This document shows positions 2,838 through 28,698 of a stretch of 54,676 nucleotides of DNA, one piece after another (within the stretch, counting starts at the first letter, position 1; each line of letters begins with the position of its first letter). The position numbers and the translations under genes are program-made. The notes beneath the pieces were generated by a model. The model was not told the DNA's origin. It saw only the letters and a list, made by a program, of their open reading frames with translations, and searched no databases. Source of the DNA: Burkholderiaceae bacterium (GTDB lineage: Bacteria; Pseudomonadota; Gammaproteobacteria; Burkholderiales; Burkholderiaceae_C); NCBI GenBank assembly GCA_004322085.1, contig SCRR01000054.1, positions 1 to 54,676 of the forward strand, given 5' to 3'.

Positions 2838-3384
2838 GACATCCCCAGTCGCCAGGAATGAACCCCCAATTACTGTGACATCTTACCCATTGCGTCAATT
2901 ACGGCACCCCCCTCCCCATCCTGACGCTTCACGGTGCCCCCTTCGCGTAAAGTTCTCTCCATGCTCGAACGCCCTCGCAGCAGGGTCCCGAAGTCCGCGC
3001 GTCGTGCTATTTCCGTTAAGAGTTATGCCAACTACGAGAGGACTTTGGTAGCAAGCCGTCAAAAGCATAGGGTGTCGCGAACAGAAGGCTAACAATTCAA
3101 TCAAGACGAAAGCTCTTTGTGCGTCAGCTTAACTCATGCGGTCAGCGACCGCTTCCACTAGTAACCCACATTCGCTTCAGGTCTAATTCAGCCTTTGGCT
3201 ACAATCGACCAGGAGTCGACTCTCAATAGGAGCACCTCCAACCAATGACATCCAGCATCCTTGCTACTCTCAATCTGCTGGCCCATCCTGCGGGTCGTTT
3301 AATCGCTCGCATAGGATCATAATCAAGCTAGGCTTTGAACGGCTTTCCCCAACTTGCGAAGCGATGAAATATTTGGTTGATTGA

Positions 3385-6300
3385 ATGGATGATCAGAGCC
3401 AGAAGCGAGTTTCAAGTCCGATCTCCACAGGCGGTGAGGGCTTGTTCTTTGAGCAGCACGTCGCCGCGTATTGGCTGGCCCAGCTCCTCGTCCGAAGCAT
3501 CCCGCCGATCCTGACTGACAGAGGCGTCACCGAAGTCCATTTTCAGACCGAGCATCTCGGCTTCAATACCGACGATTTTCTCATTGTCTGCGCGCGTGCA
3601 GGCGCACCGGCCGCACGGCTCGTCGGCCAGGTGAAGCGTAGCTTCACCATCAGTGCCGCCGACGAGGAATGCAAGAAGGCGATTGGTGACTTCTGGAGAG
3701 ACTTCAAGAAGGCTGACCCGTTCAATCTTGAGCACGATCGCTTCGTCCTCGTCACTCTGCACGGCACGAATACACTTCTCGAAAATTTCGTCAGCCTGCT
3801 CGACTGCGCGCGGGCCGCGGTCGACGGAGAAGAATTTCAACGGCGCCTGTCTCTCGACGGTTTCATCTCGAAGAAGTCCATTCAGCAGTGCAACGGGCTC
3901 TGCCACATCGTCAGCGCACTGGAAGGCACGCCCGTCGTCGCCAAAGACCTGTGGCCCTTCCTGCGCGTCCTGCACGTCCTGAACCTCGACCTACACACAT
4001 CCACCCACCAGACCGAGGCGCATATCAAGACGCTGCTTGCCCTCAAGTCTACCGATCCAGATCCCGTTACCAGCGCGACGTCTGCGTGGGACGCTCTCTT
4101 GGCCTTTGCTAGCGAGGCCGGACCGGCCGCGCGGAGCCTTAAACGTACCGACCTTCCAGCCGGTCTCGTCCAGGTGTACGACGAGGTGGGCGCGAACGAG
4201 CAGCGCGTACTGACGGCACTGAAGAACCACACGGAATTCGTTCTGCGGAAGATCCGCACGACAATCGGACCGGCCTTTCACCTGCATCGCGCCGGCATCG
4301 TCCAGAACGTGCTTGCGGCCATTGAAACCAAGCAGGCCGTCCTGATAACAGGACCAGCCGGCAGCGGCAAATCCGTCATCGGCAAGGAAGCGGTAGCCCT
4401 TCTCGCCCGTGAATTCTTCGCTTTCGGGTTCAGGGTCGAGGAATTCGCCGTCGCCCACATCGACGAAACACTCCACAACAGCCAGATTCCGGCGCGCGCC
4501 ACAGAACTTCAGGCCATCCTCGGCGCACAGGGCCGAAAGGTGCTCGTGATCGAGAGCGTCGAACGCCTGCTTGAGAAGCCGACGCGAGACGCGTTCAGCG
4601 ACCTCATGACGCTCGCCCAGGGCGACGATGGCCTCGGTATCCTCATGACCTGCCGCGATTATTCCGTGGAGCAGGTCCAGGCCAGCTTTCTCCAGTCGGC
4701 AGGGATTGATTACGCGGTCATCGAAGTTCCGCCGCTTGACGACACTGAGTTGCAGGAGATCCAGGCCGCCTTTCCGTCGCTCGCAAAGCCACTCGCCAAA
4801 CCCGCCCTTCGCCAGATCCTGCGCAACCCGTACTTCATCGACAAGGCATTGCAGATTCCGTGGGATTCGGGACGTCCGCTTCCGGAGAACGAGCGCGATT
4901 TCCGCGCCGTCTTCTGGCGGCAGATCGTGCGCGCGGATCAGAATCCGGCCGACGGCATGCCGCGCCAGCGCGAAGTAGCTTTGCAGGAGTTGGCGGTGCG
5001 CAGGGCGCGTGCCCTGTCGGATTACGTGCCAGCTACGGGACTCAGTGCCGCAGCCATCGCCCTCCTCAAACAGGACTCCCTCGTTGTTTCGCCCGACACC
5101 AATGATTTGCTCGTGGCGACGGCGCATGACGTCCTCGAGGACTGGGCCATCCTGCAATGGATCGAGGAACAGCACCTCACAGATGAGACGGCGTTCAAGG
5201 CATTGTCGTCAGCGATAGGGCCGCATCCTGCAGTGCGCCGCTCGTACAGGAAGTGGGTTGCCGAACTGGTCGACCGCGACGCACCGGCTGCGGACCGGCT
5301 GTTCAGCGCGGCCATCGCACAAGCCGACGTGTCCGCTCAGTTTCGCGACGACACCTTGGTCTCGCTGCTCAAGGCGCCGTCGGCGTCAGAATTTCTGACG
5401 CGGCACGAGGCAGAGCTGCTCGCCAACAACCGCGCGATCCTCAAGCGGGTCATCCACCTCCTGCGCGTCGCCTGTGTGACGTCGCCAGCGTGGCTTGCCG
5501 ACGTGCGCGGCCTTAGCTCAATCCTGAGCGTGCCGGAAGGCGCGGTCTGGTCAACCGTTGTGAGACTGGCGCATCGCAATATAGGCAATTTCGGGCCGGA
5601 AGACGCACCGTTGCTTCTCGCATTAATCGAGGATGCCGTGCGCGGCGTCAGCTGGTGGGCACCTGACATCGACGGGGCCGAACATGTTGCCGGCATTGCC
5701 CATTGGCTCCTCCCGCGCTTTGACCACTACAGGAGAGGAGACACGCGCAAACGCATCCTGAAGGTGATTGCCAAGATCCCGAAGGCCGACCCCGCGCGCT
5801 TCGAAGCCGTCCTGCGCGGGCAGAGCAAGGAAGGGCGCAGTCGCGATCCCGTCGCTGAGGAATTCCGCGGTATCCTGCTCGCGGGCTTTGACGGCGCACC
5901 CGCCGCGCGTGACCTACCGGACCTCTTGATCTCCGTTACATTGGATACCTTCCTCGCCACAGAGGAATATCTACGCGCGAAACCCTATGGCCGCTCATCC
6001 ATCGACGTTGACCTTTACTTCGGCATCAAGGAACACCTGGGCCATGGTTTCTTCCCTGCCAGTGCCTTCCGAGGGCCGTGGATCAACTTGCTCACACACC
6101 ATCCGAGAAAGGGCTTCGACTTCCTGATTCAGATCTTTAACCACTGTACTGGGTGGTACGCGCATCCGCGTCTTCCCGACCCCCTCGAACCAGCCTGGGA
6201 AGTTGAGCTCACGTTTGCCAACGGAACCACTCGGAAGCAATGGGTGAACCCGCGTCTCTGGGGCCTCTATCGCGGGATGAGCGTCGGGCCTTATTTACTC

Positions 6301-8466
6301 AAGTCGCTGCTGATGGCCTTCGAGAAGTGGTTGCTCGACTACGCCGAATCCCATCCGGAGGGGCTAGACACGGTACTGCTCGAAATTCTCCAGCGCAGCG
6401 ATTCCGCCGCGCTTGCAGCCGTCGTCGCAAGCGTGGCGACCGCCCACCCTCACCAGTCAGGCGAGGCCCTTCTAGTGCTGCTGTCGGCGCAGGACTACAT
6501 CGAGATCGATCGCAGCCGCATGGCCAGCGAGCACCAGACTGAGAGCCTCACGGGATTGTTCCCGATCCCCCGCGCCGAAAACAAAATCTACGAAGAGGAG
6601 CGGAAGAAGTCGAACGCACTGCCGCACCGCAAGCACGACCTTGAGGTGGCCATCACAAACCTGCAACTAGGCCCTTTGGCCCCTCGGGTTCACGCCATTA
6701 TCGACAGCTACATTGCGGCACTGCCCGAGCCGGACAAACGCAACGAGCACGACCTTACATGGCAGCTCGCCCTTCACCGGATGGACTTCCGCCAGTACGA
6801 CGTGGCCCCCGACCAGCCCGCAGCGGGCGAATCACCGGCAGCAGACGGCGAGGGCCCTCCGAAGAATTACATCCGCCTCGAACCCAAGCCTCCGGCTCCG
6901 GAAGTTCAGCAACTCATTGACGAGAGCACGAAAAGGATGGGCGAGATGAATGCCCGTCTGGATGTTTACATGTGGGGCCTCCAGATCTTCCAGCACGAGG
7001 CCGGGTCTGCGGACCCTGCGCGGTGGCGGGAGAAGCTGGCAAGTGCCAAGGGCATGGACCGCACCGCGGATCATCCCGACAACAGCCGCAACGCTCCGGG
7101 ATTTGTGGCTGCTGTCTGCGTCCGCGATCACTGGGATGAGCTGTTGCCGGAAGAGAAGGAGTGGTGCATCGACGTCATCTGCTCCGAGATCTCCAGACAC
7201 GCGGACGAGTGGGGTACCATCGACCGCATGCAGCGGTTTTCGATGCTGGCTGATCGCCCCTGTGCCTTCGTCGTGCCGCTGCTGCTCTCCAAGCCCCTGA
7301 CGGAAGCCCAGACTAAGCGCGTGCGCCAGGTCTTTATTGCCGCGCTAACCCATCCGATCGACGAGGTCCGTTGGTACGCCATCTGGGGAATGAAAGACAA
7401 GGTATGGGCCGCGCACCCCGCTCTTGCCCTGCGCGCCGTCAATACCATCGCAACCGAGGCCGCTCTTGCCGACCGCGATTGGAACGCCGAGGAGAAGAAG
7501 CGTTACGACAAGCGGCGCACGCCGGACAGGATCTCCGCTGCCGCGGCTGCAGACGTTCGCGGGCGGTTCTGGACCGAAGGAGAAATCGCCGAAGATGCGC
7601 ACGTCAGATTCGACATCACCGAGGTATTCGGCGCCGAGGCGCATGCGAAGGTCCTCGCGATCCTAGGCCAGGTTCCCAACGAGCCTCTAGCCGTGGCCGC
7701 ACACCGGCGCGCTAGCGAAGACCTCGTGGAGTGCTGGAACCGTGAGTACGATCGTTCTTCCGACCGGCGCGACAGGAATTTTGAAAGGGAGCAGGCCATA
7801 TCCGACCGCATTCAGCAATTTGTAATGCGTGCGTCCGATGCCGATTCCGAACATGTCCTTCAGCCTATCCTTGAGGCCGTTGACCGGCATCCGCGCGAGG
7901 TACACAACGTCATCCAGGGGTTCACAAGCAGAGAGGACAGCAACCCCAATACGCCGCATTATTGGTTCCTATGGAACCTGTTTGCAGAACGGGTCAAGCG
8001 CGCCAAGTGGCTCGCGCATCTGGACGGGGAACATCCGCACGGCAGTGAGGCGCTCTCGACGATCTTCCTGACCTCGTGGTGGAAGGACGACGTCCGTCAC
8101 TGGCAAAGCCTTGAAGGCTACGCCCACAACGTCGATGCGCTCTTCGATGCGTTGCCGCCTGTCTGGATCGTGCTGGACAGCTACGTCCGCTTCCTTTACC
8201 ACATCGGCGAGCGTTCCATGCCCGCAGCGTTCGTGCGCATCGCGAACGCGCTCAGGCGAGAAAACCCCGCCGACATGCTGCGCGAGTCCAACACCGTTTT
8301 TATGCTCGAAATTCTTCTCCAACGGCATGTCTACGCGCGGCCGCTGGAACTCAAGCGCGATCCGGCCCTACGCGAGGCGATCCTGTATGTGCTCGATGTT
8401 CTTGTCGAGAGCGGTTCTTCCGCCGCGTTCAGGATGCGGGACGATTTCGTAACGCCGGCTGCCTGA
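3385..8466 (+). CDS. Large nuclease-like/STAND NTPase protein, candidate antiphage defence protein (Avs-like architecture)
   Basis: N-term GGEGLFFEQHVAAYW...TDDFLIV...LVGQVKRS (E...D...QxK nuclease-like); Walker A VLITGPAGSGKSVIGKEA; Walker B-like KVLVIESVERL; MTCRDY; about 1100-aa C-terminal region that looks helical. Confidence 0.7.
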   Translation: MDDQSQKRVSSPISTGGEGLFFEQHVAAYWLAQLLVRSIPPILTDRGVTEVHFQTEHLGFNTDDFLIVCARAGAPAARLVGQVKRSFTISAADEECKKAIGDFWRDFKKADPFNLEHDRFVLVTLHGTNTLLENFVSLLDCARAAVDGEEFQRRLSLDGFISKKSIQQCNGLCHIVSALEGTPVVAKDLWPFLRVLHVLNLDLHTSTHQTEAHIKTLLALKSTDPDPVTSATSAWDALLAFASEAGPAARSLKRTDLPAGLVQVYDEVGANEQRVLTALKNHTEFVLRKIRTTIGPAFHLHRAGIVQNVLAAIETKQAVLITGPAGSGKSVIGKEAVALLAREFFAFGFRVEEFAVAHIDETLHNSQIPARATELQAILGAQGRKVLVIESVERLLEKPTRDAFSDLMTLAQGDDGLGILMTCRDYSVEQVQASFLQSAGIDYAVIEVPPLDDTELQEIQAAFPSLAKPLAKPALRQILRNPYFIDKALQIPWDSGRPLPENERDFRAVFWRQIVRADQNPADGMPRQREVALQELAVRRARALSDYVPATGLSAAAIALLKQDSLVVSPDTNDLLVATAHDVLEDWAILQWIEEQHLTDETAFKALSSAIGPHPAVRRSYRKWVAELVDRDAPAADRLFSAAIAQADVSAQFRDDTLVSLLKAPSASEFLTRHEAELLANNRAILKRVIHLLRVACVTSPAWLADVRGLSSILSVPEGAVWSTVVRLAHRNIGNFGPEDAPLLLALIEDAVRGVSWWAPDIDGAEHVAGIAHWLLPRFDHYRRGDTRKRILKVIAKIPKADPARFEAVLRGQSKEGRSRDPVAEEFRGILLAGFDGAPAARDLPDLLISVTLDTFLATEEYLRAKPYGRSSIDVDLYFGIKEHLGHGFFPASAFRGPWINLLTHHPRKGFDFLIQIFNHCTGWYAHPRLPDPLEPAWEVELTFANGTTRKQWVNPRLWGLYRGMSVGPYLLKSLLMAFEKWLLDYAESHPEGLDTVLLEILQRSDSAALAAVVASVATAHPHQSGEALLVLLSAQDYIEIDRSRMASEHQTESLTGLFPIPRAENKIYEEERKKSNALPHRKHDLEVAITNLQLGPLAPRVHAIIDSYIAALPEPDKRNEHDLTWQLALHRMDFRQYDVAPDQPAAGESPAADGEGPPKNYIRLEPKPPAPEVQQLIDESTKRMGEMNARLDVYMWGLQIFQHEAGSADPARWREKLASAKGMDRTADHPDNSRNAPGFVAAVCVRDHWDELLPEEKEWCIDVICSEISRHADEWGTIDRMQRFSMLADRPCAFVVPLLLSKPLTEAQTKRVRQVFIAALTHPIDEVRWYAIWGMKDKVWAAHPALALRAVNTIATEAALADRDWNAEEKKRYDKRRTPDRISAAAAADVRGRFWTEGEIAEDAHVRFDITEVFGAEAHAKVLAILGQVPNEPLAVAAHRRASEDLVECWNREYDRSSDRRDRNFEREQAISDRIQQFVMRASDADSEHVLQPILEAVDRHPREVHNVIQGFTSREDSNPNTPHYWFLWNLFAERVKRAKWLAHLDGEHPHGSEALSTIFLTSWWKDDVRHWQSLEGYAHNVDALFDALPPVWIVLDSYVRFLYHIGERSMPAAFVRIANALRRENPADMLRESNTVFMLEILLQRHVYARPLELKRDPALREAILYVLDVLVESGSSAAFRMRDDFVTPAA

Positions 8467-8579
8467 CGCTCCCCAATCTTTTGCCAACAAACTGGCTGAA
8501 AGACGCGCAGTGGGCTGACTAAACGATGAGCGCCATGCGCTCGGAGCGCTGCATGTAAGCCAGTCACCCAGTGGCCGCT

Positions 8580-8735
8580 TTGGGTCGGAAGCTGTCACCT
8601 GCATCTTCGCACACCCAACCGCTTGTCACGGTCCATGTCGGCGAAGGTGATGGGACTTTAGTAGCTGAGGCCCAGGCGATGCTGGCCGATCTCGAACCCG
8701 TGGATCTACCCGTGATGGTGTCCAAACGCAGCGAT
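8580..8735. repeat. Diverged direct repeat, copy 1
   Basis: GGAAGCTGTC-CCTGCATCTT...CCCAACCGCTTGTCA...GAGGCCCA-GCGATGCTGGCCGATCTCGAACCC also occurs at 12191-12345 in the same orientation. Confidence 0.75.
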
Positions 8736-9544: not shown

Positions 9545-9840
9545 GCGATCTTCAGGGTTCAAGCGGGACTACAAACGCGAAGCCAAGGGGCCACACAGGA
9601 AAACGCTTGATTCCTCTTTGGAGGCCGTGCTCGCCCGTCTCGTAACGGATCGACCTCTCGAAATCTCGTTGCCGGGATCATGATTTGTCGGGTGACTGGG
9701 TGGGTTATCGGGAATGACACATCAAGCCTGACCTGCTGCTGATCTACAAGAAAGACGGCGCGGGTGTACTCCGATTTGCACGTTTTGGATCGCACAGCGA
9801 GTTGTTCAACCGCTGGACAACTCCGGCCTCAGTCTGCTGA
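9531..9840 (+). pseudogene. YafQ/RelE-family toxin, disrupted by frameshift plus TGA nonsense codon
   Basis: Frame 1: VRTIERSSGFKRDYKREAKGPHRKTL...LEISLP; next frame: RDHDLSGDWVGYRE*HIKPDLLLIYKKDGAGVLRFARFGSHSELF, with TGA at 9715-9717 where YafQ proteins have Cys. Confidence 0.8.
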
Positions 9841-10669
9841 TGTAGAGCGCGCCCACGTGACAGTTGGGGCAGGCTGGCAGTTCTTCGCCAACCCACTCGT
9901 AGGTGCAGTTGAAGCACCGATAGCGTTGCGTCTTCCGCCTGCCGACCTCGGCCTCATGCTGGTGCAGCAGCCGTTCTCGCAGGTCTCGGGAACGTTTCGC
10001 TTTCCTGGCGTGGTACAGCCACTTCATGCTGGCGTGGCGCGCCGGATCGGCCAGCGCCTCGATGACTTGCTGCTTGAGGTGCCCGGTTTCACGGGCGATG
10101 TGCCAAAACCGCTTCTTGAACGATTCGTCGAAATGGATTTCGATGGCCCCGAATCGAGCATCGTCCGGGACCTGTAATGATCCTGCTGGAAACGAGCGTC
10201 CTGGATGGGTCAGGTACACACAGAACTGCACGCCTTGAACTTCACCAGCAAGGTCGAAACTCACCCCGTAGAGGCTCACCCCTGTGTGAATGTGTTCAAG
10301 CAGGACACGTCGACTATTCGTGACGGTGTATTCCTGCTCCAACGTGGCACCGTCGTCGAAGCGCACCTGCAGGATGTCCTGATAGGCCGCGAGCTTCATC
10401 GACAGGTTCGCCGCACTCTCCGCGTATGAGCGGGCAGCACTGCATAACGAGGAGAAGAACGGCGCCGTGCAGGGCACGTAACGCGGGTCATCGATGTCCT
10501 GGCAGGCGTGGGCGAAGTGCCAAGTCCGCACGTTTCCCTTGCGGGCGATGAGGGGCGTCTTGCAGTCCGGGCACACGTATCTCGTACGGCCGCTGTCGCA
10601 GGCTTCCACGGAGATGATCTCTCCGGATGAGCCGTCCAATCCGAAGGGGACGAGGTTGGTATTTCCCAT
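9806..10669 (-). CDS. CoiA-like zinc-binding protein
   Basis: YVCPDCKTPLIARKGNVRTWHFAHA (CoiA-type N-terminus) and C-terminal CFNCTYEWVGEELPACPNC zinc ribbon. Confidence 0.6.
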   Translation of the reverse strand: MGNTNLVPFGLDGSSGEIISVEACDSGRTRYVCPDCKTPLIARKGNVRTWHFAHACQDIDDPRYVPCTAPFFSSLCSAARSYAESAANLSMKLAAYQDILQVRFDDGATLEQEYTVTNSRRVLLEHIHTGVSLYGVSFDLAGEVQGVQFCVYLTHPGRSFPAGSLQVPDDARFGAIEIHFDESFKKRFWHIARETGHLKQQVIEALADPARHASMKWLYHARKAKRSRDLRERLLHQHEAEVGRRKTQRYRCFNCTYEWVGEELPACPNCHVGALYISRLRPELSSG

Positions 10670-11185: not shown

Positions 11186-11311
11186 TGCATCCCGACCGAT
11201 GAGCGGTCGCTTACCGGCCAGAAGCAGTCAGTCGACATGGTCCCGTAGATCGTTAATTGTGTCTAGGTCGTGGCACATGAAATTGTCCGCACTCAAAGCA
11301 GGAAATCTTTA

Positions 11312-12187
11312 ATGAATTTTGACGCATCTGCTACGCTTCCTGACATGGCCCCTGCGCCCGGGAGTGCACTAACGTTGCGCTTGGAGGTCCCTTCGCTAAA
11401 GTCGCTTTACATTGAAATGTACTTCGGGGATACGCTCCTGAGCAGCGGTACCGCATTTCTTGTAGCTAACGACCAATCGTCACACTGCACGCTCATTACA
11501 AATCGCCATAACGTTACAGGCCGACACCAAGAAACTGACGAATGCCTAGATAAAAAATACTGCGCCACCCCAAACAATATCAAAATCTACTTCCATAAGC
11601 ACCCTTTGGACCTTGGTGAGTGGCATTGCGTTAAGTTGCCTCTTTATAACGAAGATAGATCGCAGCGGTGGATTGAGCACCCAAGGTTTGGAGCATCGAC
11701 TGATGTGGTCGCGCTAAATTTGAAGTGGGGGAATGATGTCCAAAAGTTCCCTTACTACCTTAAGACCGACCTCGATCGTGCAAAACTGGTAGTACGGCCG
11801 GCAGAGCCTATTAGTGTAATAGGATTTCCCTTCGGATTGTCTTCCACTGGGCACTTTCCTATATGGGCCACCGGATTTATGGCTCAGGAACTGGGGATCG
11901 TAACACCGGATAACCCAACCTTTCTTATTGACTGTCGTACTCGTCAGGGGCAATCGGGCTCCCCTGTGATTGCCTATAGAGCAAACACATTTACATATAT
12001 TAATGATAGCGGGAAAGTTTCGACCAATATGGCTCCCGGGGTTGTTAAGTGGGAGTTTCTTGGGATCTACTCAGGGAGAGTAAACTCTGAGTCAGATCTT
12101 GGACGTGTGTGGCACGTTAGCGCGATAGAAGAGGTTTTGACCGCCGCCGAAGCAGCGATTTCTAAACCTTTGGGCCAACGTGGCTGA
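11312..12187 (+). CDS. Trypsin-like serine protease
   Basis: His in LITNRHNV, Asp in STDVVALNL, Ser in RQGQSGSPVIAY; 291 aa; no signal peptide apparent. Confidence 0.7.
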   Translation: MNFDASATLPDMAPAPGSALTLRLEVPSLKSLYIEMYFGDTLLSSGTAFLVANDQSSHCTLITNRHNVTGRHQETDECLDKKYCATPNNIKIYFHKHPLDLGEWHCVKLPLYNEDRSQRWIEHPRFGASTDVVALNLKWGNDVQKFPYYLKTDLDRAKLVVRPAEPISVIGFPFGLSSTGHFPIWATGFMAQELGIVTPDNPTFLIDCRTRQGQSGSPVIAYRANTFTYINDSGKVSTNMAPGVVKWEFLGIYSGRVNSESDLGRVWHVSAIEEVLTAAEAAISKPLGQRG

Positions 12188-12190
12188 TCG

Positions 12191-12345
12191 CTTAGGGCCG
12201 GAAGCTGTCGCCTGCATCTTAGCGCGCCCAACCGCTTGTCAAGTTCGGCGCCGGTGAAGGTGATGAGGCTTCGGCAGTTGAGGCCCAAGCGATGCTGGCC
12301 GATCTCGAACCCACGGATCTACTCGTAATAGTGTCGAATCGTAGA
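12191..12345. repeat. Diverged direct repeat, copy 2
   Basis: See 8580-8735. Ends where the IS256-like remnant begins. Confidence 0.75.
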
Positions 12346-13808: not shown

Positions 13809-15668
13809 GTGAACACGTACGCAACGGATAGTCACGTAGCTATCACGGATGTTCGCGTCAGCAATTTTCGTTCGCTTAAGAACATTGAAGTTCATTTAAC
13901 AGACCTGACCGTCCTCCTGGGGGCCAACAACGCTGGCAAGACGAGTTTTCTGGATGCGGTCTACGCTGGTATCGGTAGTGGAAGGCGGCCTCTTACCCAA
14001 GAAGACGTACATATCGCACTAGGGGAAGCGGTTGTTCCAAAGGACCGCGAGGTTGTCGTCGACATCCTTGTCAAACCGATTGGGGATAATGATAAGCCGC
14101 TTAAAAAATTCTCTGTCGGAAGCTTCTGGGTAGGGCTCTGGGGAACCGCCATCATCCTCAATGAGAAGGACTTCACCGAGTCGATAGGTATCCGCACTCG
14201 CCTTTCTTGGTCGGTTGCCAAGGGCGATTACGTTGTTGAGCGGAAGTTCCTCAAGGAATGGATGGACTTCGGTGACTGGTTAGCTGCGCCAGTCTCCGAG
14301 ATGGTGGTCACCTCAGCTCAAATTGAGCCCATCGCGCTTCACTATATCGACGCGAAGAGGGACTTGGAAGATGACTTGCATCGCCCTGGTTCGTTCTGGC
14401 GGCGGTTGACCGATGACCTTGGTCTTCCGCCTGAAGATGTTGCGGCTATCGAAGCGTCGCTGACCGAAATCAACAAGCAGATCGTTGATAAGAGCGAGGT
14501 CCTCCGACATCTCAGGGATAGCCTTCGTACGATTCAAGGTGTTGTCTCGGCAGACAGTGATGGCATCAACGTGTCGCCTGTCGCACGTCGCTTCCAAGAT
14601 TTGTCTCGTGGCGTGGATGTGTCGTTCTCCACAGCTGGCTCCCAGCCCTTTCCCTTGGCAAGACATGGCATGGGAACGAGGAGCCTTGCCTCTCTACTGG
14701 TATTCAGGGCTTTCACAGCTTGGAAGGCCAAAACTGCAAACGATAACAAGGACAGGCTCCATTCCATCCTAGCACTTGAGGAGCCTGAGTCCCATTTGCA
14801 CCCTCAGGCGCAGCGTTCACTGTTTAGGGAGATCAAGGCTATTCCTGGACAGCGCATTGTTAGCACCCATTCTCCCTACTTCGCGGCACAGGCCAGGCTC
14901 GAGGATCTGCGCCTCTTCATTAAGGATGGTGGTGTCTCCTGTGTCAGTCAGCTACCGATAGAGGAGCTTCAGAACAAGGACGACGTGCGGAAATTGCAGG
15001 AGACGGTCATTGAGACTCGTGGAGACCTGTTGTTTTCGTCGGGTCTTGTGGTCTTTGAGGGGCAAACCGAAGAGCAGGCCTTGCCCATCTGGGCTGAGGC
15101 GTATTGGGGTGCTTCTATCCACGAGCTTGGATTCAGTTTTGTCCGTGCCAACGGCACCCAGTACTTCCCGTTGATTTGGCTAGCCAAGAAGTTCCACATC
15201 CCGTGGTACGTCTTTGCGGATGGCGAGACGCAGCCAGTACAGCGGCTCGACGAAGCTCTGAAGAAGGCGGGAGAGGGAGATCACAAGGCTTGCGATAATG
15301 TGGTGGTCATCGAGGGCGGCCGAAACTTCGAGAGCATGTTGCTTGGTGACGGTTATCTTCTCGAAGTGGAGAAGGCTCTGGATGAACAGTGTGGCAAGCC
15401 TGGTGCGTTGGATGATTTTATTAATCTAAATCATGGGAAACCCTATGGTTCAGGCAGAGGAACCCGAGACTATGACGGTCAAGAAGGCCGTCTTCGCGCC
15501 GCCTTGGATGCTATGAAGTCTATGAAGACGAAGCTGGCTAAGCCGCTTGCTCGCACCATCAGCGCCCACGCTGACCCCAATCGCCGCTTTCCACGCCCGA
15601 TTGAAAAGCTCTTTGAGAAGATAGGGAAGAAGCATTCACTCGAGCGTTGTGAGGCATCCAAAAAATGA
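13809..15668 (+). CDS. gajA: Gabija endonuclease GajA (OLD-family ATPase/TOPRIM)
   Basis: VLLGANNAGKTSFLDAV Walker A; ALEEPESHLHP; TOPRIM-like VVFEGQTEEQALP; overlaps a UvrD-like helicase gene by ATGA. Confidence 0.9.
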   Translation: MNTYATDSHVAITDVRVSNFRSLKNIEVHLTDLTVLLGANNAGKTSFLDAVYAGIGSGRRPLTQEDVHIALGEAVVPKDREVVVDILVKPIGDNDKPLKKFSVGSFWVGLWGTAIILNEKDFTESIGIRTRLSWSVAKGDYVVERKFLKEWMDFGDWLAAPVSEMVVTSAQIEPIALHYIDAKRDLEDDLHRPGSFWRRLTDDLGLPPEDVAAIEASLTEINKQIVDKSEVLRHLRDSLRTIQGVVSADSDGINVSPVARRFQDLSRGVDVSFSTAGSQPFPLARHGMGTRSLASLLVFRAFTAWKAKTANDNKDRLHSILALEEPESHLHPQAQRSLFREIKAIPGQRIVSTHSPYFAAQARLEDLRLFIKDGGVSCVSQLPIEELQNKDDVRKLQETVIETRGDLLFSSGLVVFEGQTEEQALPIWAEAYWGASIHELGFSFVRANGTQYFPLIWLAKKFHIPWYVFADGETQPVQRLDEALKKAGEGDHKACDNVVVIEGGRNFESMLLGDGYLLEVEKALDEQCGKPGALDDFINLNHGKPYGSGRGTRDYDGQEGRLRAALDAMKSMKTKLAKPLARTISAHADPNRRFPRPIEKLFEKIGKKHSLERCEASKK

Positions 15669-17515
15669 GTAGCCAGCCACCCGTCCGACTGTCCCCGCAG
15701 CAAGAGCGCGTCGTCTCCCATGTTGATGGGGCGCTTCTGGTGGTGGCTGGGCCTGGGTCGGGTAAAACCCGTGTGCTAACTGAGCGTGTCCGTCGTCTCC
15801 TGACCACGGTTCCTGGGCATTTCCGGATTCTTGCTCTGACCTTTACAAATAAGGCGGCCGACGAGATGCGGGAGCGCCTGGCAGACCTTGGTGACGAGCG
15901 AAAGCGTGCTTACATCGGAACCCTACATGGGTTCTGCCAAGAGCTCCTGGCCGAGCGAGGGAAGTTTGTAGGCGTTGAGGGTACGCCCAACATCTTCGAG
16001 TACCACAAAGACCGTCGGGAGATCTTGGCAAGGGCCGTGGCTGAAGACCCCGCACTTTCTGAAATCATCGATGAGCTTCCTACGGCAAAGGAGCGTAACC
16101 AGCGCTTGGATCAGTGGCTGGCAGCCATCGGGCGCATCAAGACGCACCCCATCACCTGTGCAGTTCTAGACGATGATTATGCACGCATCGTCAACGCCTA
16201 TAATACAGGCCTGCGGGCGTGCAACGCATTCGACTTCGATGATTTGCTTCTGTTGGCCTACCAGCTTCTTGTCCAGACACCACAGTTGGCCGATTTCTAC
16301 CGACGCTTGTATCGCTTCATCTGCGTCGACGAGTCGCAAGATTTGAACGAAGCGCAGTACGCGGTCATCTGTGCACTGTGTGGTACTGATTTCAAGAACC
16401 TCATGATGGTGGGCGACCCTAAGCAGTCCATCTACGCGTTCACCGATGCGGGCCCTCAGTTCATGGAGCAGTTTGCACGGGAATTTGGTGCGGAGTGTGT
16501 GGAACTCACCGAGAATTTCCGTTCTTCTCAGGCCGTGGTGCGAGCAGCCCAAGCACTAAATCCAAAGTATCAAGTAGCGGGCCAGCTTCCAGTCGAAGGG
16601 GGGTGTTTGCTTTGGATTGGTCAGAATGAGGCCGAGGAAGCGCAACTCGTTGTGAATCGATTGGTGGAGCTCATGAAAGATGGGCACTCAGATGTGGAGG
16701 GACCTATCACTCCTTCAAGATGCGCCATCCTGGCGCGGAATCGCTTTGCCTTGCTCGCCGTGGAGAAGGAGCTCGCAGACCGCCATCTCCCGTTCTACAA
16801 GAGGCTGACCGCCAACCATGAGAATGAGTCTGAGCTGGTGGAGGACTTCCAGCTTGCGTTGAGGGTGCTGGCCAACCCTATGGATCGCTTGCACTACAGC
16901 GCTCTGGCGAAGCGATGGTCTGTATCTGAGTCGCAACCGGGTGCAAAGAGCGCCTTGGAGGCAATCGGATTGCTCGCAACGGCATCTTCGAAGCCAGGGG
17001 CCAAGACCGTAGCCAAGGCCGCAAGAGTCGCCTTCAATAGTGGTGGCAATCCTAAGTTCATGGAGGCTCTCGTGGTCCTGAAGAGTTTTGCTGATGGCCT
17101 CTCTGAGAACGGCCGTCGAGCTATCTACGAAGACGTAACCGTTTTCGAAAAGGAATGGGATCAGTTTCTTCGCTCAGAGAGTGGAGCGAAGAATCTTGGT
17201 TCTTTTCTAAGCAGCAAGGCACTTGGAGCTACGCAGCGTACTGTCCAAGACGGAATTGGTCTTTTGACCGTGCATTCGGCGAAGGGGTTGGAGTTCGATG
17301 TGGTCGCCATCATGGGGATGGCTGAGGGTATCTTCCCTGACTATCGGGCACAAAACCCCAAGGACCTTCAGGAGGAGGCGAGGAGCGCGTTTGTTGCCGT
17401 AACCCGTTCGCGTCGGCTGCTCTACCTGAGCTATCCGCAGAATAAGATAATGCCTTGGGGGGATTCAAAGCGGCAGAGACCTTCGAGATTTTTGAAGAAA
17501 ATTGGATTTAACTAA
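15665..17515 (+). CDS. gajB: Gabija helicase GajB (UvrD/PcrA-like)
   Basis: LLVVAGPGSGKTRVLTERV, CVDESQDLNEAQY, VGDPKQSIYAF, LTVHSAKGLEFD, RSAFVAVTRSRRLLYLSYP. Confidence 0.9.
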   Translation: MSSQPPVRLSPQQERVVSHVDGALLVVAGPGSGKTRVLTERVRRLLTTVPGHFRILALTFTNKAADEMRERLADLGDERKRAYIGTLHGFCQELLAERGKFVGVEGTPNIFEYHKDRREILARAVAEDPALSEIIDELPTAKERNQRLDQWLAAIGRIKTHPITCAVLDDDYARIVNAYNTGLRACNAFDFDDLLLLAYQLLVQTPQLADFYRRLYRFICVDESQDLNEAQYAVICALCGTDFKNLMMVGDPKQSIYAFTDAGPQFMEQFAREFGAECVELTENFRSSQAVVRAAQALNPKYQVAGQLPVEGGCLLWIGQNEAEEAQLVVNRLVELMKDGHSDVEGPITPSRCAILARNRFALLAVEKELADRHLPFYKRLTANHENESELVEDFQLALRVLANPMDRLHYSALAKRWSVSESQPGAKSALEAIGLLATASSKPGAKTVAKAARVAFNSGGNPKFMEALVVLKSFADGLSENGRRAIYEDVTVFEKEWDQFLRSESGAKNLGSFLSSKALGATQRTVQDGIGLLTVHSAKGLEFDVVAIMGMAEGIFPDYRAQNPKDLQEEARSAFVAVTRSRRLLYLSYPQNKIMPWGDSKRQRPSRFLKKIGFN

Positions 17516-17984: not shown

Positions 17985-18998
17985 TCATGGAGGCGACTCG
18001 GGAGTCGGTTTGCCCTGTTCTCCGGGAGCGAAGTTCGCGGACGGCTTTGCCGTCTTGTGGACGGGGGCCCGCTCTTCGGGGCGTGCTTTGACGTATGACG
18101 TTGCCTGCCCGATTCCACGGGAGCCGTAATACTTTAAGTTCGTCTGATCCGACAGGTGTCCCATCAACGCCGCGATCTCGTCGAGGTCACGATGTGAGCG
18201 CCGCAGGTTAGCCGCGAACTGGTGCCGGAACGTATACAAGGTGGGTGACTTCCCCTTGAGCTTTGCGTGCTTGACCGCGCGCCGCAGGGTCGTCGACGCA
18301 GCCAGGTAAATGTGTTTGAAACTTTCTCCATTTCGCATGCGGGCCTGCAGTTGCGAGAAGAAATCCTGACACGCTTCCGTCACAGCTCGATGTTCGGCCG
18401 GCATGACGAGAGTACGTGAGCGTCCGTTGCCTCTTCCGTTCGTCGCCTTAGCGTTATGCACGGTTACGGTTCCAGTACCGTCTTCGGCAGTGGAGAAGAT
18501 CGCGGTTTCGTATTCGCAAGGTCGCAGTCCCAGGTACAGACTGACGGTCGACCAGAGCGCCACGAAGCGTGAAGCCTCGGTGTCGTTTTGCGATAGCACG
18601 TTGAGCACCTTGCGTTGCGTGCTCACACGGATCCCATGTGCCTTTTCAGAAGATGTAGCCGAGGGAATATCGTCTCGCGTGCCCCAGCGAATTTCGCGGA
18701 TCTGTTGTGCGACATCAGGCATCCCGCGTGCTTCGAACGTGTAGGCCGACGCGGCACGGTAGAGCGCTGAGGTAGCGGGACGCAAGTGCTGCGTTTTTTC
18801 TTGCAACCAATCGACGTAACCGGCAATCGATTGGATGTCACCCGACTCTCGCACGTATCTCTTCATCAGCAGGTCGGCACGATCCAAATAGGCCCGCTCT
18901 GTTTCCGCCGTTCGTCCGTCCTTTGTCGAGTTCAACACAGGTTGTTCCCGCTTCGTTCTGGACACCCCATTTCTCCCGCCATCATCCGATTCACTCAT
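17985..18998 (-). CDS. Tyrosine recombinase/integrase
   Basis: LGLRPCEYE, TLYTFRHQFAANLRR, IAALMGHLSDQTNLKYYG catalytic set; likely start MSESDDGG at 18998, though the ORF extends to 19121. Confidence 0.8.
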   Translation of the reverse strand: MSESDDGGRNGVSRTKREQPVLNSTKDGRTAETERAYLDRADLLMKRYVRESGDIQSIAGYVDWLQEKTQHLRPATSALYRAASAYTFEARGMPDVAQQIREIRWGTRDDIPSATSSEKAHGIRVSTQRKVLNVLSQNDTEASRFVALWSTVSLYLGLRPCEYETAIFSTAEDGTGTVTVHNAKATNGRGNGRSRTLVMPAEHRAVTEACQDFFSQLQARMRNGESFKHIYLAASTTLRRAVKHAKLKGKSPTLYTFRHQFAANLRRSHRDLDEIAALMGHLSDQTNLKYYGSRGIGQATSYVKARPEERAPVHKTAKPSANFAPGEQGKPTPESPP

Positions 18999-19313
18999 CA
19001 CACAACTCTCATCCTTCCCGAACACCAAGCCAACTGATTTTCGCCAACAACATCTCACTTCCTGAGCACATCTCACCCACTCACTTCTGACGCTCTCCTC
19101 CCCCGCCTCCACCCCAAACAATCTCTACTTCATTTCACTCCCTCACCCCTACAAAACCTTCGAAACGCACATCCACCCCCTCATCCCCACCAAAACAAAT
19201 GTCTCATCTTCACCCCAAATTCACGCCTCACCTACTTCCTGTTACTGGGACACGCATGTAATTGTGAAATGCGACACCGATTTTTACCATTTCGAAGGGC
19301 AAATCGGGGGTGT

Positions 19314-28611: not shown

Positions 28612-28698
28612 TGGTGCCCGGAAGAGGACTCGAACCTCCACGGGGTTTCCCCCACTAGCACCTGAAGCTAGCGCGTCTACCAATTCCGCCATCCGGGC
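28612..28698 (-). tRNA. tRNA-Leu (anticodon CAG)
   Basis: Reverse complement GCCCGGATGGCGGAATTGGTAGACGCGCTAGCTTCAGGTGCTAG...GGTTCGAGTCCTCTTCCGGGCACCA folds as a long-variable-arm tRNA with encoded CCA. Confidence 0.95.

Follow-up and report, generated by a model that had tools for sequence, protein, structure and literature searches.

Avs1 to Avs4 show nuclease activity after sensing the terminase or the portal of a phage, and Avs5 systems sense quite different proteins (PMC12931631). Avs4 recognises the portal, with ATP-dependent oligomerisation (PMC12724215). The general layout of Avs and other antiviral STAND proteins consists of an effector, an NTPase and a C-terminal sensor in one protein, with an intact Walker A and a winged helix, and the gene described here has this layout. 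The N-terminal nuclease of canonical Avs4 is Mrr-like, and effector variety on Avs cores was reportedly described by Gao et al. in 2022. Our gene lies in a 54,676-nt stretch of DNA from a Burkholderiaceae bacterium, analysed as a whole and called the window below. It quite probably encodes a single-gene anti-phage receptor, an Avs4-type STAND with a Cap4-type PD-(D/E)XK effector, that would degrade DNA when triggered by the portal. The receptor reading is supported, by sequence and prediction, through the domain order, the protein families, the folds, the kept motifs, purifying selection, one-gene mobility and the defence neighbourhood.

The open reading frame begins with ATG and encodes 1693 aa at positions 3385-8466 (+), and its frame is intact in relatives. 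The following features were delimited in the gene and its flanks:

3205..3384, + strand: conserved 5′ flank, probable promoter and leader, from similarity to the flanks of relatives.
3385..8466, + strand: whole gene, 1693 aa, putative Avs4-type STAND receptor with Cap4-type effector, from the ORF and from family and fold matches.
3385..4188, + strand: effector, residues 1-268, predicted Cap4-type PD-(D/E)XK nuclease, from the AF2 model and Foldseek.
3451..3453, + strand: E23, predicted catalytic glutamate of helix 1, kept in 18/19 divergent effector copies.
3571..3576, + strand: D63-D64, predicted catalytic aspartate pair of strand 2, kept in 19/19.
3628..3636, + strand: Q82-V83-K84, QxK motif of strand 3 with K84 as predicted catalytic lysine; Q and K kept in 18/19.
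4189..5184, + strand: STAND NTPase and winged-helix region, residues 269-600, from Pfam nSTAND1 and nSTAND3 and as part of the Avs4 match.
4351..4374, + strand: Walker A, GPAGSGKS, residues 323-330; G/A/G/G/K/S invariant in 22 proteins, aligned with GEGGVGKT of E. coli Avs4 (EcAvs4).
4540..4557, + strand: Walker B-like VLVIES, residues 386-391, with Glu390 replacing Asp, aligned with VIVVDS of EcAvs4.
5125..5130, + strand: H581-D582, winged-helix His-Asp motif (like the MHD motif of NLRs), invariant in the clade.
5185..8463, + strand: predicted Avs4-type helical-repeat sensor, residues 601-1693, from the AF2 model and Foldseek.
8467..8591, + strand: conserved 3′ flank of the cassette, from similarity to the flanks of relatives.

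A scan of 84,980 species genomes recovered 29 loci, 21 of which encode intact, near full-length proteins with 45-91% identity; aligned with the query, they form a set of 22 proteins. Other loci run into the end of a contig, and in L019 the frame is broken. The reading frame and all the motifs quoted in the original prediction were present as described: GGEGLFFEQHV (residues 16-26), TDDFLIV (62-68) and GQVKRS (81-86) in the N-terminal part, and GPAGSGKSVIGKEA (323-336) and LVIESVERL (387-395) in the NTPase. Residues G16, G19, F22, E23, D63, D64, Q82, V83 and K84 of the former, and Walker-A G323/A325/G326/G328/K329/S330 together with E390/S391 of the latter, were invariant in the 22 proteins. 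The motifs are therefore far from chance, as these residues stay invariant across the query and 21 relatives of such a range of identity.

Both the STAND NTPase and the effector-NTPase-sensor order, which had been proposed from the sequence, were recovered. Pfam returned nSTAND1 (1.5e-5) and nSTAND3 (1.9e-4), both slightly below the gathering score, and the winged-helix His-Asp motif was found also in EcAvs4. Regarding the sensor, the PADLOC Avs4 model matched residues 270-1688 over its positions 160-1569 of 1570 (E 2.6e-145) and the NCBIfam Avs4 model matched residues 265-1687 (E 4.4e-162). The NCBIfam score of 541 bits does not reach the equivalog cut-off of 1500 bits, set for full-length canonical Avs4, so we regard the protein as Avs4-like and non-canonical. 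In a class-wide search with the same NCBIfam model, the matches besides the window gene were mostly weak ones in the P-loop region. When the profile of the 22 relatives was searched against PDB, the sole match was the Avs4 structure 8DGF (E 6.4e-113, residues 273-1265 and 1430-1687). The AF2 model of residues 539-1693 had a pLDDT of 79.8, and its top Foldseek match was again 8DGF, 'Avs4 bound to phage PhiV-1 portal' (E 4.5e-33, TMq 0.61), followed at about 1e-6 (1.6e-6) by unrelated HEAT-repeat proteins. The STAND NTPase and the Avs4 sensor are thus colinear with Avs4 along their whole length, and the C-terminus is predicted to be an Avs4 helical-repeat sensor, HEAT-like and not TPR. The original prediction had left the C-terminal ~1100 residues outside any known repeat family; given the PADLOC, NCBIfam and 8DGF profile and fold matches, they can be assigned to the Avs4 sensor. 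It had also suggested a possible new subtype from the non-TPR C-terminus, which is indeed not TPR but belongs to the known HEAT-like Avs4 sensor. The traits that are unusual, namely the Cap4-type effector and the separate clade, had not been proposed.

The effector was more difficult to characterise. Across 14 members, residues 1-268 matched nothing meaningful in Pfam; BLAST found no match between them and EcAvs4, and sequence searches of the N-terminus against PDB returned only chance matches to methionine aminopeptidase (E 0.5). The AF2 model of these residues (pLDDT 67.6) displays the helix-strand-strand-strand-helix-strand order typical of PD-(D/E)XK; helix 1 contains E23, strand 2 opens with D63/D64, and strand 3 closes with Q82-x-K84. 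Foldseek against PDB placed Cap4 first (6wam, E 3.5e-4, prob 1.00), followed by LmuA (9hr5), Avs3 (8dgc) and Hachiman (8zue), all of them defence nucleases; the TM-scores of these fold matches are moderate (0.37-0.45) and the model confidence is middling, weakest at residues 1-26 and 55-62. Against viral proteins, the N-terminal fold had no match at E < 0.001. The 19 divergent copies in which the motifs were counted come mostly from outside the clade of the window protein. The model, at its moderate confidence, accordingly points to a Cap4-type PD-(D/E)XK fold with an E, D, QxK active site, in agreement with the Cap4-like nuclease expected at the N-terminus. Neither of the outcomes that had been named as contrary to the original prediction, a structure without nuclease fold and winged helix or homologues only in housekeeping contexts, was observed.

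Cap4-like modules are found on Avs4-type cores in the window clade and in Hymenobacter (L062), whereas E. coli L065 and the genome locus L098 carry the canonical Avs4 N-terminus and a Calothrix protein (L070) has an Avs4-type core with almost no N-terminal effector. The module occurs also on other large STAND proteins. In two further cases, L099:487-4914 (genome G018) and L105:4893-9395 (a Burkholderia cepacia plasmid), this Cap4-like N-terminal module sits on TPR-GreAB-C-PIN proteins and not on STAND proteins. On a Haliscomenobacter hydrossis plasmid (NC_015511.1, L067:2350-8353) we noticed an Avs4 core with a trypsin-like N-terminus (stretches of PADLOC Avs2 and of LmuA trypsin type). Its gene immediately follows one for an MBL hydrolase (Pfam Lactamase_B 8e-5), an arrangement that places the nuclease-protease pair described in PMC12799240 on an Avs4 core. 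The window clade received 100% SH-aLRT in the core tree and adjoins the group with canonical and other Avs4 cores (98%). At least three effector changes are required by this tree, whose use for reading their direction is limited by several long branches and by an outgroup found mostly via its Cap4-like effector.

The gene travels alone. The 5′ flank is 85.6% identical over 181 bp with that of a Paraburkholderia locus (L013) and ~71-74% with L007, L002 and L004, with no similarity further out. The 3′ flank is 92% identical over 119 bp with L013 and 79% over 122 bp with L016, and is similar also in L006, L007, L002 and L022; beyond the conserved stretch the similarity ends. From these alignments the gene moves as a one-gene cassette, to which ~180 bp on the 5′ side and ~120 bp on the 3′ side, common to unrelated genomes, belong as well. 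Clustering of 1182 flank ORFs from the window and the 29 loci yielded no family present in more than three loci, and an operon with a required partner gene was rejected on this ground. Relatives were found in beta/gammaproteobacteria and in MAGs of other phyla, some of whose host names may be binning errors (e.g. the Actinomycetota MAG L014, 85%); the isolates by themselves already cover both beta- and gammaproteobacteria. The identity between distant taxa is 85-91%, reaching 91% between beta- and gammaproteobacteria. Purifying selection acts on the gene, including its effector domain: dN/dS is 0.11-0.16 for the whole and stays under 0.3 in each domain. Viral contigs held no copy by full-length or N-terminal alignment, and annotated phages gave a single weak match with 19% identity.

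The neighbourhood is rich in defence genes, and the suggested Avs-like single-gene system does often adjoin them, in the window as in its relatives. The window contains a Gabija pair at 13809-17515 (GajA 13809-15668 and GajB 15665-17515; PADLOC E 1.6e-222 and 1.8e-229) and a trypsin-like protease gene at 11270-12187 (Pfam Trypsin_2 1.1e-7; PADLOC candidate PDC-S45 2.9e-16), as well as a phage-type integrase at 17985-19121 (-) and pieces of Mutator transposase. Near the relatives we identified type I R-M, DRT UG29, Mza, Hma, GajB-like and LmuB-like genes. The GC content is 0.55-0.61 in the first ~24 kb and 0.63-0.68 beyond, and a tRNA-Leu is located at 28612-28698; together with the integrase, these features make it likely that the defence side of the window is a genomic island next to a tRNA gene. 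A search of the first 28 kb for a tRNA-Leu att repeat yielded no exact repeat of at least 13 nt. A 156-nt direct repeat (8576-8731 and 12189-12344, 82% identical), one copy of which closely follows the Avs gene and the other the trypsin-like gene, is possibly a recombination remnant. In the gene at 9806-10669 (-), Pfam recognises a CoiA N-terminal domain (9e-10), and there is a weak match to DruB1.

By analogy with solved and tested Avs proteins, from which the ligand, the oligomerisation and the DNA cleavage are carried over, the C-terminal helical sensor would bind a conserved protein that the phage produces as it infects the cell; the portal, which E. coli Avs4 senses, is the most likely candidate. 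The NTPase would then bind ATP and oligomerise, and the clustered N-terminal nucleases would degrade phage and host DNA, so that the infection is stopped and the cell sacrificed. The ligand of a protein with the same architecture and nuclease might instead be a non-portal phage protein (the large terminase, a different virion component or a protein made early), which is possible, although we do not favour it. Depending on the region, the core shares only about 16-25% identity with EcAvs4, with the minimum in 1061-1450, which is also the most variable region of the family, and the sensor forms a clade apart, so the ligand may differ; the range of proteins sensed by Avs5 systems gives a precedent (PMC12931631). 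However, the sensor aligns with Avs4 throughout, its C-terminal end included, and the structure that it matches by fold is the portal-bound form, 27 orders of E-value ahead of the next match. A stronger version seems doubtful to us: the clade would be an Avs type of its own, sister to Avs4 and armed with Cap4, its sensor having shifted to a non-portal ligand, and the Cap4-like effector would be the ancestral one, which the canonical Avs4 N-terminus replaced later.

Toxicity could also come from elsewhere in the protein, the N-terminal domain being a structural remnant or a regulatory domain. This would fit the moderate model confidence and the fact that its sequence matches no nuclease in Pfam or PDB, but of 19 divergent copies 18-19 retain E23, D63/D64 and QxK, at the positions that PD-(D/E)XK enzymes need, the best folds are all defence nucleases, and the domain is under purifying selection, which makes an inactive domain quite improbable. 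Some large STAND proteins act as regulators, and the gene might on that precedent encode a signalling regulator with a housekeeping role. Such a role is very improbable for a gene that has no counterpart in the 40 relatives searched at genus, family and order level except the N-terminal module in G018, that is 85-91% identical across distant taxa, and that sits in a lower-GC region by a tRNA-Leu among defence neighbours.

We therefore return to the Avs4-type receptor with a Cap4-type effector. On this reading, an Avs4-type core, portal-sensing in E. coli, is able to carry a Cap4-type nuclease, and a single effector family is common to Avs4-type receptors, other large STAND proteins and TPR-PIN proteins. 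Effector exchange thereby becomes directly testable, with one sensor carrying different warheads or one warhead placed behind different sensors. The gene would also represent a compact, very mobile single-gene defence cassette, unnamed by the NCBI Avs4 equivalog rule because its score is well under the cut-off.

Compared with known systems, the window protein shares its predicted effector fold, without detectable sequence similarity, with Cap4 of CBASS, LmuA of Lamassu and Avs3. In Cap4, gating depends on a SAVED domain and a cyclic nucleotide, whereas here the C-terminal half is an Avs4 sensor and no CD-NTase was seen among the neighbours scanned; LmuA is gated, unlike our protein, by an SMC complex, and the sensor of Avs3 differs (terminase). 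Related effector modules occur in the PADLOC candidate PDC-M54A and in retron-type DUF626_VIII proteins (L064, L097 and L062 match them, and the window protein matches DUF626_VIII at E 0.009 only), whose sensor halves are unlike that of the window protein. In the Avs1-type nuclease-protease pair a trypsin-like N-terminus follows an upstream MBL hydrolase gene, but here the N-terminus is Cap4-like and the upstream genes at 7-2837 had no Pfam match. The Hymenobacter aerilatus plasmid protein WP_245097727.1 (L062) combines a Cap4-like effector with an Avs4 core (28% identity over 10-1301) and, unlike the window clade, groups in the core tree with canonical Avs4, on a long branch. E. coli Avs4 (AVAST type 4; 8DGF; PADLOC PDLC02169; NCBIfam NF041815) has an NTPase and a whole helical sensor colinear with residues ~270-1688, and its Walker A, winged-helix His-Asp, RG and C-terminal motifs align with those of the window protein. 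The N-terminus of the window protein, with its predicted fold nearest to Cap4, is unrelated by sequence to that of E. coli Avs4 and about 100 residues longer. As Avs4 is a known kind and it is the DNA-cutting domain that differs, this effector-exchanged Avs4 is a useful variant and not a new kind of system.
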